8,893 bases of DNA, from contig MHDQ01000087.1 of the NCBI GenBank assembly GCA_001803565.1, forward strand, positions 1 to 8,893, written 5' to 3'. Numbering within the stretch: the first letter of the stretch is position 1; every line of letters starts with the position of its first letter. The position numbers were made by a program, and so were the translations under genes. Shown here piece by piece: positions 2,796-8,893 of this stretch. The notes under the pieces were generated by a model, which did not search any database, was not told the origin of the DNA, and saw only the letters and a program-made list of their open reading frames with translations. This DNA comes from Nitrospinae bacterium RIFCSPLOWO2_12_FULL_45_22 (lineage in GTDB: Bacteria; 2-12-FULL-45-22).

Positions 2796-3875
2796 ATGAA
2801 AAAGACTATAAAACTCGAACTGGAAATGCTTTACACTCAACTAAAGATTTATTCTGGAGTAATTGATATTCTGGTATCTTCTTTGCACCTGGACTTTTTA
2901 GCCCGAAGGGTCTTGGAAAAGATACTAGAGATATTACCCTTTAACGCCGGGGCCTTACACCTCTATAATCCAGAGGAGAATCTTTTAGAATTAAAGACTC
3001 ATATAGGTGTTTCCGAGGAGTTTATAAAAAAGGCTGAGCGAATAATTGTTGGGGAGGGTATTACAGGCCGTACTGCCCTATATAGAAGATCTATTATGTT
3101 AAGCGGTCAAGAAATAGATCCGCGTGCCCAACCTGATAACACCTTTCCCCCACCATCAAATATGCGCCCTATAATAAGCCTCCCAATTGTCCCTAAAATA
3201 GATACTATCCAACTACCTATAAGGATAAAAGACGAACTTATTGGGGTTTTGACCTTTTTCCCCAATCCTGATCAAGATATAAAAGAGATGGTTTTTAAGA
3301 CCCTCGATTCCTTATGTAACCCTCTGGCCTTGGGTTTTAAGAATGCTATGCTCTACGAAGAAGCAGAGCAGATGGCTACTAAAGATGGGTTAACTCGCTT
3401 GTATAATCACTCTTATTTGCAAGGCTTCCTGGAAATGGAATTGGTTCGAGGAAAGCGTTACCACAGACCATTAACTTTTGCGATGCTGGACATTGATAAT
3501 TTCAAACAGATCAACGATACTTACGGCCATCAGGAAGGAGACCTGATACTGAAAGAACTAGCCGATATATTGCGTAATTTCACCCGGGCAAGTGATTTGG
3601 TGGCCCGGTATGGTGGAGAAGAATTCGCCGTTGTTCTCCCAGAGACCCTTGCGCCTCAGGCTTATATTTTAACTGAACGTTTACGGCAGCAAATAGCAGG
3701 GTATTCTTTTTCTGGTGCGGATCATCCGCTAAAAATTACTACTAGCTGCGGGATCGCTGATTGGGAACCCCATTATCCTTTAGATCAACAAGGATTAATT
3801 GCTAGAGCAGACCAGGCACTATATCAAGCTAAGTCCCAGGGGCGGAATAAAACCTGTCTCTGGGAAAAAGATTAG
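2796..3875 (+). CDS. GAF-GGDEF diguanylate cyclase
   Basis: The enzyme condenses two GTP into the second messenger cyclic di-GMP in the cytosol. I place the start at 2796 (MKKTIK, 359 residues) because AAGAGG lies 9 bases upstream; an in-frame ATG at 2787 directly abuts that site and is less likely. In numbering from 2796, a GAF-type sensory domain spans about 27-187 and contains GEGITGRTALYRRSIML and a final ELIGVLTFF strand. A helix links to the GGDEF domain (about 194-356), which opens with DGLTRLYNHSYL. The metal-binding FAMLDIDNFKQINDTYGH is present, the active-site loop is GGEEF (273-277), and an RASD inhibitory I-site stands five residues before it, so product feedback is expected. No phosphodiesterase domain or membrane segment is visible. 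The GAF ligand is unknown. Confidence 0.93.
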   Translation: MKKTIKLELEMLYTQLKIYSGVIDILVSSLHLDFLARRVLEKILEILPFNAGALHLYNPEENLLELKTHIGVSEEFIKKAERIIVGEGITGRTALYRRSIMLSGQEIDPRAQPDNTFPPPSNMRPIISLPIVPKIDTIQLPIRIKDELIGVLTFFPNPDQDIKEMVFKTLDSLCNPLALGFKNAMLYEEAEQMATKDGLTRLYNHSYLQGFLEMELVRGKRYHRPLTFAMLDIDNFKQINDTYGHQEGDLILKELADILRNFTRASDLVARYGGEEFAVVLPETLAPQAYILTERLRQQIAGYSFSGADHPLKITTSCGIADWEPHYPLDQQGLIARADQALYQAKSQGRNKTCLWEKD

Positions 3876-5848: not shown

Positions 5849-5980
5849 TCCCGCCCCCCAGTCTATCTTAGTGAGCAGTAAGCAAGTTAGCGGTTAACTC
5901 CTCACTACTTACCCCCGTGTGAGTTCAAGGTAGGTTAAAGGTCTTAACAAGAAATGGAAGGATATCCAAGGTCAAGTAAT

Positions 5981-6872: not shown

Positions 6873-7000
6873 TTTACCGCAGAGGAGCAGAGACCCAGAG
6901 AAAACTATACTTACGTGATTCGTGTCCGTAAGAATAAAAGGAAATCCGCTAAATGATCATGGTATTAGACTCTTCTCTGGGCCTCTGCGTCTGCGGTGAA
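6873..7000. repeat. Inverted-repeat element (about 128 bp) with 28-30 base arms
   Basis: The left arm (6873-6902, beginning TTTACCGCAGA and ending CCCAGAGAA) and the right arm (6973-7000, beginning TTCTCTGGG and ending TCTGCGGTGAA) are near-complementary, with about two indel positions and two mismatches. The 70-base interior contains a smaller palindrome, CTTACG (6910-6915) with CGTAAG (6927-6932), enclosing ATTCGTGTCC, the reverse of the repeat at 3977-3986. No open frame lies inside. The right arm is part of the second copy of the repeat seen at 1541-1597. It is probably a non-autonomous palindromic element. Confidence 0.6.
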
Positions 7001-7042
7001 AACTTGCAATAAAGTATATGGTTGTATTGAGTGGCGTCTTTT

Positions 7043-7158: not shown

Positions 7159-7168
7159 AATGGCCTAG

Positions 7169-7221
7169 AGAAAATTTGCCTGAAAAGATACCTAATATCA
7201 TTATCCCAAGGCAAATTTTCT
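7169..7221 (+). repeat. Perfect 13-bp inverted repeat in the leader of the secreted-protein gene
   Basis: AGAAAATTTGCCT (7169-7181) and AGGCAAATTTTCT (7209-7221) are exact complements enclosing 27 bases. It sits 11 bases downstream of the predicted -10, so it would be transcribed. It could be a regulatory hairpin, a paired protein-binding site or a recombination site remnant. Confidence 0.55.
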
Positions 7222-7238
7222 TGTCAATAAATGTTCCA

Positions 7239-7255
7239 TTGCCCAAAATGGGCAA
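7239..7255 (+). promoter_or_regulatory. Palindrome enclosing the start codon of the secreted-protein gene
   Basis: TTGCCCA (7239-7245) and TGGGCAA (7249-7255) pair perfectly around a three-base AAA loop. The ATG at 7248-7250 straddles loop and stem, and no ribosome site lies upstream. This could limit initiation on the mRNA or act as an operator at DNA level. Confidence 0.4.
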
Positions 7256-7877
7256 GATACTTGGAGGAAGGTTTCTGTTTCTCCGCGTAAATTTACTACT
7301 GACGGCCTTGCTGGTGTGTTGCACAACCTACCAGGGTTTAGCTCAGGAACTTCAGAGCGTTGATGGGTGGATGGTGGTAGACTCCAGAGGCAATCGCGTA
7401 GGTCGCGTGCTCGGAGTATCCAATCCCGATAACGCGGTAATAGGCTTTGAATCAGACGGTCGCGTCTTTCAGATCAACGTGTGGCCCGGCGGGTTCCGGT
7501 TTGGAGGTGGGGTCCTATTCACGTCGCCGAACTGCCAGGGGCAGCCCTATGTGCCGGTTTCGAAACCTCCGCTCTTCATGGCCTTTGGTATAATTGCTAC
7601 TCCCGGACACACAGTCTGGGTCGGTCAGTTGGAAGTTCCACCCCAGACAATCACGGTCGTATCGGTGTTGAACGACACCTGTCAGGCGTCGACCTTCAGT
7701 ACGTGGGCCTTGCCGGCTATCCCGGTCGTCAATTTAGATGAACTATTCCTGCCTCCTTTCAAGCTCGCCACCGACACCACGACAGGAGTGCCAGACCATG
7801 CGCATACATATCTCACCGGAAAAGGAGAGGGGCACAACAATGTCACTGCTACAACCGGAGGCATGATTCGTCGCTGA
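7248..7877 (+). CDS. Secreted protein of unknown function with His/Asn-rich tail
   Basis: The ATG at 7248 gives 209 residues with a signal peptide: a basic start (MGKILGGRFLFLR), a hydrophobic core (LLLTALLVCC) and probable cleavage after GLA (residue 32). The mature part begins with a beta-rich segment, GWMVVDSRGNRVGRVLGV (40-57), and has only two cysteines, C96 (SPNCQG) and C145 (DTCQAS), which could form a disulfide. The C-terminus carries HAHTYLTGKGEGHNN (184-198), whose spaced histidines and asparagines suggest metal binding or a structural motif like those in tail-fibre proteins. I recognise it only as a type of exported protein of unknown function. The frame stays open upstream to a TTG at 7176, but no ribosome site supports that start. 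GC is clearly higher than in genes to the left, and it lies downstream of an integrase remnant, so acquisition is likely. Confidence 0.7.
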   Translation: MGKILGGRFLFLRVNLLLTALLVCCTTYQGLAQELQSVDGWMVVDSRGNRVGRVLGVSNPDNAVIGFESDGRVFQINVWPGGFRFGGGVLFTSPNCQGQPYVPVSKPPLFMAFGIIATPGHTVWVGQLEVPPQTITVVSVLNDTCQASTFSTWALPAIPVVNLDELFLPPFKLATDTTTGVPDHAHTYLTGKGEGHNNVTATTGGMIRR

Positions 7878-7925: not shown

Positions 7926-8276
7926 GTCACCCAGTATCTGACTACTGACGCGGTGTTCAGCACCTTGCAAGATGTCGCTTCGTCCTCTGCCCCTGGCAGT
8001 GAAATCGTCTTCCAGATTATCCTGCCCCCATCGATCTTGAGTGCAGAGGACCAGGCAGTGGTGGCCGTGGCCTCCCAGCTTGCAGCACAGCGATGAGAGC
8101 CCTGGCGGAGTTTTTTCGAGCCTAAAGCCCTTGAGGCGCGGCTCAGAGCAATGGGCTTTACCCAGGTCTTCCACTTTGAGCCAGCAGAAGCCTCAAGCCG
8201 GTATTTTCAGGGACGGACGGATGGGCTCCAGTTACCGAATTACTTTGAACTCATCACAGCTAAGGTTGGTGTGTAA
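7926..8276 (+). pseudogene. C-terminal remnant of a SAM-dependent methyltransferase (LCM/TIGR00027-like)
   Basis: One reading frame from 7926 to the TAA at 8274-8276 encodes VTQYLTTDAVFSTLQDVASS, then GSEIVFQIILPPSILS, a single TGA at 8094-8096, and then EPWRSFFEPKALEARLRAMG followed by FTQVFHFEPAEASSRYFQGR. This order matches the C-terminal half of putative methyltransferases related to leucine carboxyl methyltransferases (PF04072/TIGR00027), where an E-G-V-x-Y-L-T motif and a G-E-P-F/W-x-x-F-F motif occur. The TGA occupies the position of the conserved glycine before EPW, one base from GGA. The N-terminal half with the SAM-binding GxGxD loop is missing, and a TAA stands in frame about nine bases upstream of 7926. 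It is therefore a truncated, nonsense-carrying remnant. It lies between the secreted-protein gene and attC, in the high-GC part. Confidence 0.7.
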
Positions 8277-8359: not shown

Positions 8360-8453
8360 ACCTAACTCACTGTTCCACCTGACCGCCGCCCGCTTGCGGT
8401 TTGGGATGAATCCGAAAGGCCACGGTGGGGCGGCGGCAGGTGATCGGCAGCGT
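8360..8453 (+). other. Integron attC recombination site, interrupted at its right core
   Basis: The left core ACCTAAC (8360-8366) fits RYYYAAC. After a 9-base spacer comes the arm CACCTGACCGCCGCCC (8376-8391), which pairs over 15 bp with GGGCGGCGGCAGGTG (8428-8442) and leaves A8382 extrahelical. A matching 9-base spacer (8443-8451) leads to GT (8452-8453), the first two bases of the right core GTTRRRY, where the group II intron begins. Core, symmetric unpaired spacers, long stem with a single bulged base and variable terminal loop are all attC hallmarks. The extra base in the 5' arm suggests the plus strand is the attC top strand, so the cassette genes to the left read towards it. Confidence 0.82.
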
Positions 8454-8893
8454 GTGTGCCGGGCATGGCACAGGACTGGCGAGGTGAAAGTCCTCGTACC
8501 AGGTATTATCGGAGCCGAAGGTTAGGAGAAGGGCAAGGGCGTCATCGTGAGGTGGGGTCTGGAGGAAGTCCAATCCAAAAGTGCGGGGCGACGAACAGGA
8601 ACCGGATAGGAGGTGTGGTACATCCGGGACGAGTGGGCACGTGACCACGAAGTCCTCCATCCGTGATTTGGGTGTGCTTTATAAATCCGGCGTTTACGCA
8701 CTGAAAGCTCCGTGTCTTACCCCGGGAGGCCTGTACAGTGTCTTAACAGAAGGTATGGCTGAGATATTGTGGCACCGCCGGGAAACCAGGTGGAAACGGA
8801 GAAGACAAAGTTCAGCCTGGAGCCACAGTGATAGACTGAGGCACGAGCAATCGTGTCTGATCGCTGTGCAGGAGTCAGCAGAGGGCATATTAG
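8454..8893 (+). mobile_element. Group IIC (class C-attC) intron, 5' ribozyme portion, continues off window
   Basis: The intron starts GTGTGCCGGGCATGG at 8454, nearly identical to the 5' end of the Oceanobacillus iheyensis group IIC intron as I remember it. Further landmarks in the same order are the small stem CGAGG-TGAAAGT-CCTCG (8480-8496), GACGAACAGGAACCGGAT (8588-8605, compare the GGAACACGAACUUC region), the block CTTACCCCGGGAGGCCTGT (8716-8734), and AGGAGTCAGCAGAGGGCAT ending near 8888, the segment that commonly precedes the intron-encoded protein. The reverse transcriptase/maturase gene is therefore expected to start just past the right edge. Insertion inside the GTTRRRY core of an attC is the target choice of class C-attC introns. 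Open frames inside this stretch are by-products of ribozyme sequence. No domain V/VI is in the window. Confidence 0.85.

Follow-up and report, generated by a model that had tools for sequence, protein, structure and literature searches.

Contig C87 (MHDQ01000087.1; 8,893 bp), which makes up the entire window, is part of a 3.67-Mb genome that is 85% complete in 321 contigs. Among 60 genomes searched for relatives, one (G001) belongs to the same order and the others share only the domain, which fits the guess of an earlier note, written from the sequence alone, that the lineage is uncultured. An inverted repeat at approximately 7165-7225 lies at the border between a low-GC backbone and a GC-rich cassette part, and dispersed repeat-like stretches are found at approximately 1530-1575 and 6885-7010 (CTCTGCG..TGCGGTGAAA). 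Two traces of ORFs lie on the forward strand, which is also the strand of the attC and intron described below. The first (7248-7877) is a cassette-like ORF with a signal peptide-like start, for which Pfam gave no family above the cut-off; the second (7929-8276) is a remnant with an in-frame stop, reading LTTDAVFSTLQDV..., which had no match in Pfam and which we presume to resemble methyltransferases. Elsewhere, the genome has two full integron integrase (intI) genes, on C243 and C304, and many intI pieces; beside these stand two loci, C136:20148-20653 and C317:8631-9136, that carry the same internally deleted integrase (approximately residues 3-125 followed by 269-313).

A group IIC intron in an attC

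An attC half-site begins on the forward strand with an R'' box (ACCTAAC, 8360-8366) that matches RYYYAAC at 7/7 positions. The left stem arm (CACCTG-A-CCGCCGCCC, 8376-8391) is followed by a terminal loop, or variable terminal structure, of 36 nt (8392-8427), and by the right stem arm (GGGCGGCGG-CAGGTG, 8428-8442), as read from sequence and fold. The 15-bp stem pairs CACCTG (8376-8381) with CAGGTG (8437-8442), and CCGCCGCCC (8383-8391) with GGGCGGCGG (8428-8436); the A at 8382 is extrahelical, a bulge on the left arm that marks the attC top strand. The 5' exon ends with IBS1 (GCGT, 8450-8453), whose GT (8452-8453) is what remains of the R' box (GT|TRRRY), such that RYYYAAC, stem and bulge are all present in the window, and GT is the only visible part of R' (GTTRRRY). 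The hairpin folds as DNA better than shuffled sequences do (z = -2.57; 3/200 shuffles as good), and a combined attC-likeness score for R'', stem and left-arm bulge was matched by none of 2,000 shuffles and by one of the 2,220 other CGT positions on the contigs sampled from this genome, the set that the attC scan covered. That one position is followed by TAGAC and reads as an intact attC. Of the 45 intact attCs on the contigs examined, 36 have CGTT at R'; hence, CGT/T is an ordinary, natural R' site. We confirm that the attC half-site is real, as observed earlier: the left half, the 15-bp stem with one extrahelical base, and the GT of the right core can all be read directly from the sequence.

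The intron itself starts with GTGTGCCGGGCATGG at 8454, directly after this GT, and its first 440 nt (8454-8893, forward strand) run to the contig end. The earlier claim of a group IIC 5' end immediately behind GT is borne out by the GTGTG at 8454, which fits the consensus GUGYG, and by Rfam model RF02001 (group-II-D1D4-3), which finds the domain I-IV core at 8541-8715 (125 bits, E = 3.9e-26) and also matches known class C introns, such as those of plasmid pR148 (L048) and genome G118 (L090). We set the 5' boundary at CGT|GTGTGCC because the sister copy on contig C17 is homologous from 8451 onwards; sister copies end with CCCGAT, which fits a 3' end of AY. Alignment suggests ACGC at 8696-8699 as a candidate EBS1, complementary to IBS1. 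The domain IV leader, which lies just before the usual start of the reverse transcriptase, is found at 8836-8893 (RF01998, D1D4-1, 31.6 bits; aligned to the C17 copy and to L013, from a 'Deltaproteobacteria' MAG), and this match reaches the last base of the contig, where it is cut off. The window extends to intron nt 440 only; this copy's reverse-transcriptase region, its domains V/VI and its 3' exon are off the contig. The element is a real group IIC intron inserted in an attC, and the evidence supports both the attC as target and the insertion point between GT and T, as had been proposed.

Comparison with introns of other classes revealed an extra hairpin in domain IV (8753-8823). In the window and in C17, this 72-nt hairpin is 83-86% identical to a domain VI segment of other-class group II introns, with counterparts on C191 and C122 of this genome (L008, 4438-4509; L009, 8185-8256) and in another genome, G116 (L114, L117), and it is absent from the aligned proteobacterial relatives. 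Exchange between intron classes is a possible source, judging from these identities. C191 and C122 were rejected as further copies of the window intron; they carry other-class introns that have only the 72-nt hairpin in common with it.

Insertion at R' on the top strand

Extrahelical bases on the left arm identify the top (cassette-sense) strand, as behind aadA1 in plasmid pR148. A pattern search of our genome contig collection yielded 29 stretches with the same intron start, mostly from Marinobacter and other Gammaproteobacteria, plus L013 and a Chitinivibrionales MAG (L023); L090 was added by way of its protein. Because the attC scanner gives chance hits at low thresholds (in 127 kb of shuffled sequence, 22 at threshold 8 and 10 at 9), strand counts were restricted to sites with arm scores of at least 9. 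The bulge is on the left arm at 21 of 23 such sites, including those in the window, C17 and C140, and on the right arm at none, with two undecided; below 9, a few remain undecided, and L034 alone points the opposite way, with a score of 7.2. GT is preceded by C at every site displayed. By the same test, canonical introns (TTGT|GTACGCCC) gave the right arm, and thus the bottom strand, in 4/4 cases. Both types stand back to back at one attC (3044-3120) of Marinobacter xestospongiae (L031), with the bottom-strand intron to its left, on the minus strand, starting at 3043, and the top-strand intron to its right, starting at 3121. The window fits the signature by which we define the lineage here, GTGTG[CT]CGGGCATG behind CGT, at attC R' on the top strand. 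The window intron has the orientation of the cassettes and interrupts R' on the attC top strand (CGT/T). Separately, we note that the top-strand intron of L023 is 704 nt long and retains no more than a short reverse-transcriptase remnant, making it a further ORF-less member, and that L015 (852 nt) was rejected as a clean ORF-less intron, being a deletion derivative that keeps reverse-transcriptase residues 226-444.

The reverse transcriptases (IEPs) of most top-strand introns are 61-66% identical to that of pR148 (54% for L090), compared with 44-48% for the canonical bottom-strand introns and mostly 41-51% for introns that target terminators. In a tree of 26 IEPs, seven core top-strand rows form one clade (96/84) and four bottom-strand rows another (95/96), and class C introns that target terminators branch nearby as outside groups. 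Placing L090 inside the top-strand clade was not rejected (p-AU = 0.49); top- and bottom-strand types as one clade were rejected (p-AU = 2.9e-10), with the clade test referring to the IEPs of this lineage and not to one from the window. The data show that the top-strand lineage is coherent, spread over several phyla, and distinct from canonical bottom-strand class C-attC introns.

These comparisons bear on the possibility that the window holds a canonical class C-attC intron. Introns of this kind run opposite to the cassettes, having entered the bottom strand of attC at the TTGT/T of R'' (PMC7923331). These are the integron introns already known, and those of the IMP-4 and arr-2 plasmids (L080, L083) resemble the window's in broad class (IIC), in host site, with the attC hairpin as upstream stem-loop, and in their position inside a core box, after GT and before T. 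Nonetheless, we consider this reading very improbable, and it is already contradicted: the window has GCGT as IBS1 where a canonical intron would have TTGT; its attC bulges on the left arm; both traces of ORFs upstream share the strand of the intron; and canonical introns have the opposite strand and orientation, start with GTACGCCC, and have IEPs that form a separate clade and are only 44-47% identical to those of this lineage, the joint clade having been rejected. The label 'class C-attC', given in the earlier note, thus stands as far as group IIC and the attC target are concerned, but not with respect to the insertion, which is in the top strand at R', or the IEP lineage, which does not group with C-attC introns.

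A class C intron that targets terminators could instead have landed by chance behind a hairpin that resembles an attC, given that most insertions of class C introns follow a terminator stem-loop (PMC4424553) and that terminator types are among the neighbours in the IEP tree. This is no more probable than a canonical intron. The junction is not preceded by a T-run, unlike those of L079, L081 and L082; attC features recur at the C17 and C140 copies and at most relatives; and the R'' match is perfect, with the single equal-scoring position among the 2,220 background positions. Terminator-type introns have AUAA in the alignment where the window has its candidate EBS1, ACGC; since EBS1 of the bottom-strand lineage aligned unconvincingly, the argument from EBS1 is one that we infer.

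Of known introns, the closest is that of pR148 (80% identical DNA in the first 275 nt), which lies behind aadA1 in a class 1 integron of an Aeromonas hydrophila IncC plasmid. Like the window intron, it is on the cassette strand and starts GCGT|GTGTG, and the pR148 copy restores GTTAGATGC; it differs in having a full 444-aa reverse transcriptase and in lacking the extra domain IV hairpin. Among 72,556 plasmids, at least 80% of the pR148 intron is matched in only nine records. One copy, 99.9% identical, is on a Shewanella algae plasmid in PLSDB, and is probably the same-orientation case noted in S. algae KC-Na-R1 (PMC9229058). Another same-orientation case, from E. cloacae in 2012, is summarised in PMC7923331 as a group IIC intron in the attC top strand that was described as not IIC-attC; going by that description, which was our only basis for comparison, it resembles the window intron in class, strand and cassette orientation. 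With two same-orientation reports, the literature consulted treats top-strand insertion as an oddity, and the lineage has been little noticed.

Sister copies in the same genome

Two further copies in the genome have the same 5' boundary, GT|GTGTGCC, as the window. The C17 copy is 92% identical, with homology from 8451 (the C before GT|GTGTGCC), and the C140 copy is truncated and 73% identical, with homology from 8450; they sit behind attC-like hairpins (CAGCGGATGGC..GCCACCGCTG and AATCCAGCGGACGGCG..CGCCGCCGCTGATT), and both contigs have more attC-like sites on the same strand. In G001, the genome of the same order, intron remnants likewise adjoin attC-like sites. Assembly in 321 contigs at 85% completeness, a contig that ends inside a repeat, and a scaffold gap in C17 would all be compatible with an artefact of assembly or binning at the junction or in the contig, but this is the least probable of the alternatives, since an identical, exact 5' boundary is found on three contigs behind three different attCs, G001 has similar remnants, and the same junction occurs in finished plasmids.

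The C17 intron passes from the domain IV leader to domains V/VI within 857 nt, including 8 N, without a reverse transcriptase. The 8-N scaffold gap is in domain IV, and since the 22 nt on each side of it are identical, little sequence is probably missing there. Contig C144 starts inside the domain IV leader, matches C17 at 88% identity across 133 nt, and runs gap-free to ..CCCGAT with domains V/VI but no reverse transcriptase. Domains V/VI were identified in both by alignment; Rfam gave no domain V match in L085 (E 0.1), the domain V region of which nonetheless aligns with the pR148 intron. In L013, the same leader precedes a reverse transcriptase, which is the normal arrangement. Searches of the 85%-complete assembly with RVT_1 and the pR148 IEP found no class C reverse transcriptase. 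The one reverse transcriptase found, on C291 (L010), adjoins a Cas6-like gene; read from its translation, it is fused to TPR and primase-polymerase-like parts and looks like a type III CRISPR reverse transcriptase. The intron copies in this genome thus appear to be ORF-less, having lost the reverse-transcriptase ORF and kept domains V/VI. In bacteria, ORF-less group II introns are almost always accompanied by a related IEP encoded in their own genome (PMC4424553); the C17 and C144 introns resemble them in keeping the ribozyme domains without an IEP ORF, and differ in that no related IEP was found in this assembly. The earlier note had named the lack of a reverse transcriptase or domains V/VI downstream as a ground for refutation, and it is the latter that the sister copies provide.

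C87 and C144 have the only orphan 5' and 3' intron halves at contig ends that we found in the genome, and C144 resumes approximately 7 nt after the last base of the window, as judged by comparison with C17. For these reasons, C87 and C144 are probably one intron of approximately 790 nt, with C144 the missing 3' half of the window intron, on circumstantial grounds. If so, the 3' exon TCGACGG would give R' as GTTCGAC, a 6/7 match with one mismatch to GTTRRRY. Complementarity between R'' and R' is unfit as a test of this join, as TRRRY is contributed by the cassette that follows. The 3' exons in this genome are TAGCT, TCGAC, TAGAC and TATGC, and all readable 3' exons across the lineage begin with T, nearly all with TA. 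Hence, GTT is restored in the sister copies, whereas the full GTTRRRY that the earlier note had anticipated is restored in one only. On the C17 contig (L006), catalase, Cu/Zn-SOD-like and cupin-like ORFs lie directly after the intron (minus strand, 8623-6121), followed by an attC-like site (5914-5972); these ORFs may be a multi-gene cassette.

Mechanism and implications

We propose, with a probability of roughly 0.87, that a group IIC intron of the top-strand lineage retro-inserted in the attC top strand between GT and T of R', and that the reverse-transcriptase ORF has apparently been lost from this genome's copies. The attC hairpin would serve as the upstream stem-loop, with CGT/T as IBS1/IBS3; the intron would recognise the hairpin in single-stranded DNA together with CGT, the latter probably through pairing of EBS1 (ACGC, 8696-8699) with IBS1. 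Insertion at this point turns GTT into GTG, and IntI recombination at the site should therefore stop. Since cassette transcripts carry the intron in its sense orientation, the mRNA would be restored by splicing. Copies without their own protein would need an IEP in trans for any mobility. A broader proposal stands at about even odds, namely that two integron-targeting IIC lineages evolved separately, one for each attC strand, with the top-strand lineage spread over several phyla and its members in the window's lineage being short, ORF-less, spliced from cassette transcripts, and mobile only with protein in trans.

Canonical C-attC introns are antisense to the cassettes and thus cannot be spliced from a transcript that starts at the integron promoter. 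By contrast, a top-strand intron could be removed from the cassette mRNA, and its effect on downstream cassettes should differ. The Marinobacter xestospongiae attC that holds both types indicates that different lineages can enter the same attC from either strand, and the choice of strand serves as a natural experiment in how IIC introns recognise DNA hairpins. Lastly, the ORF-less copies bear on the question whether such introns survive without a protein of their own.
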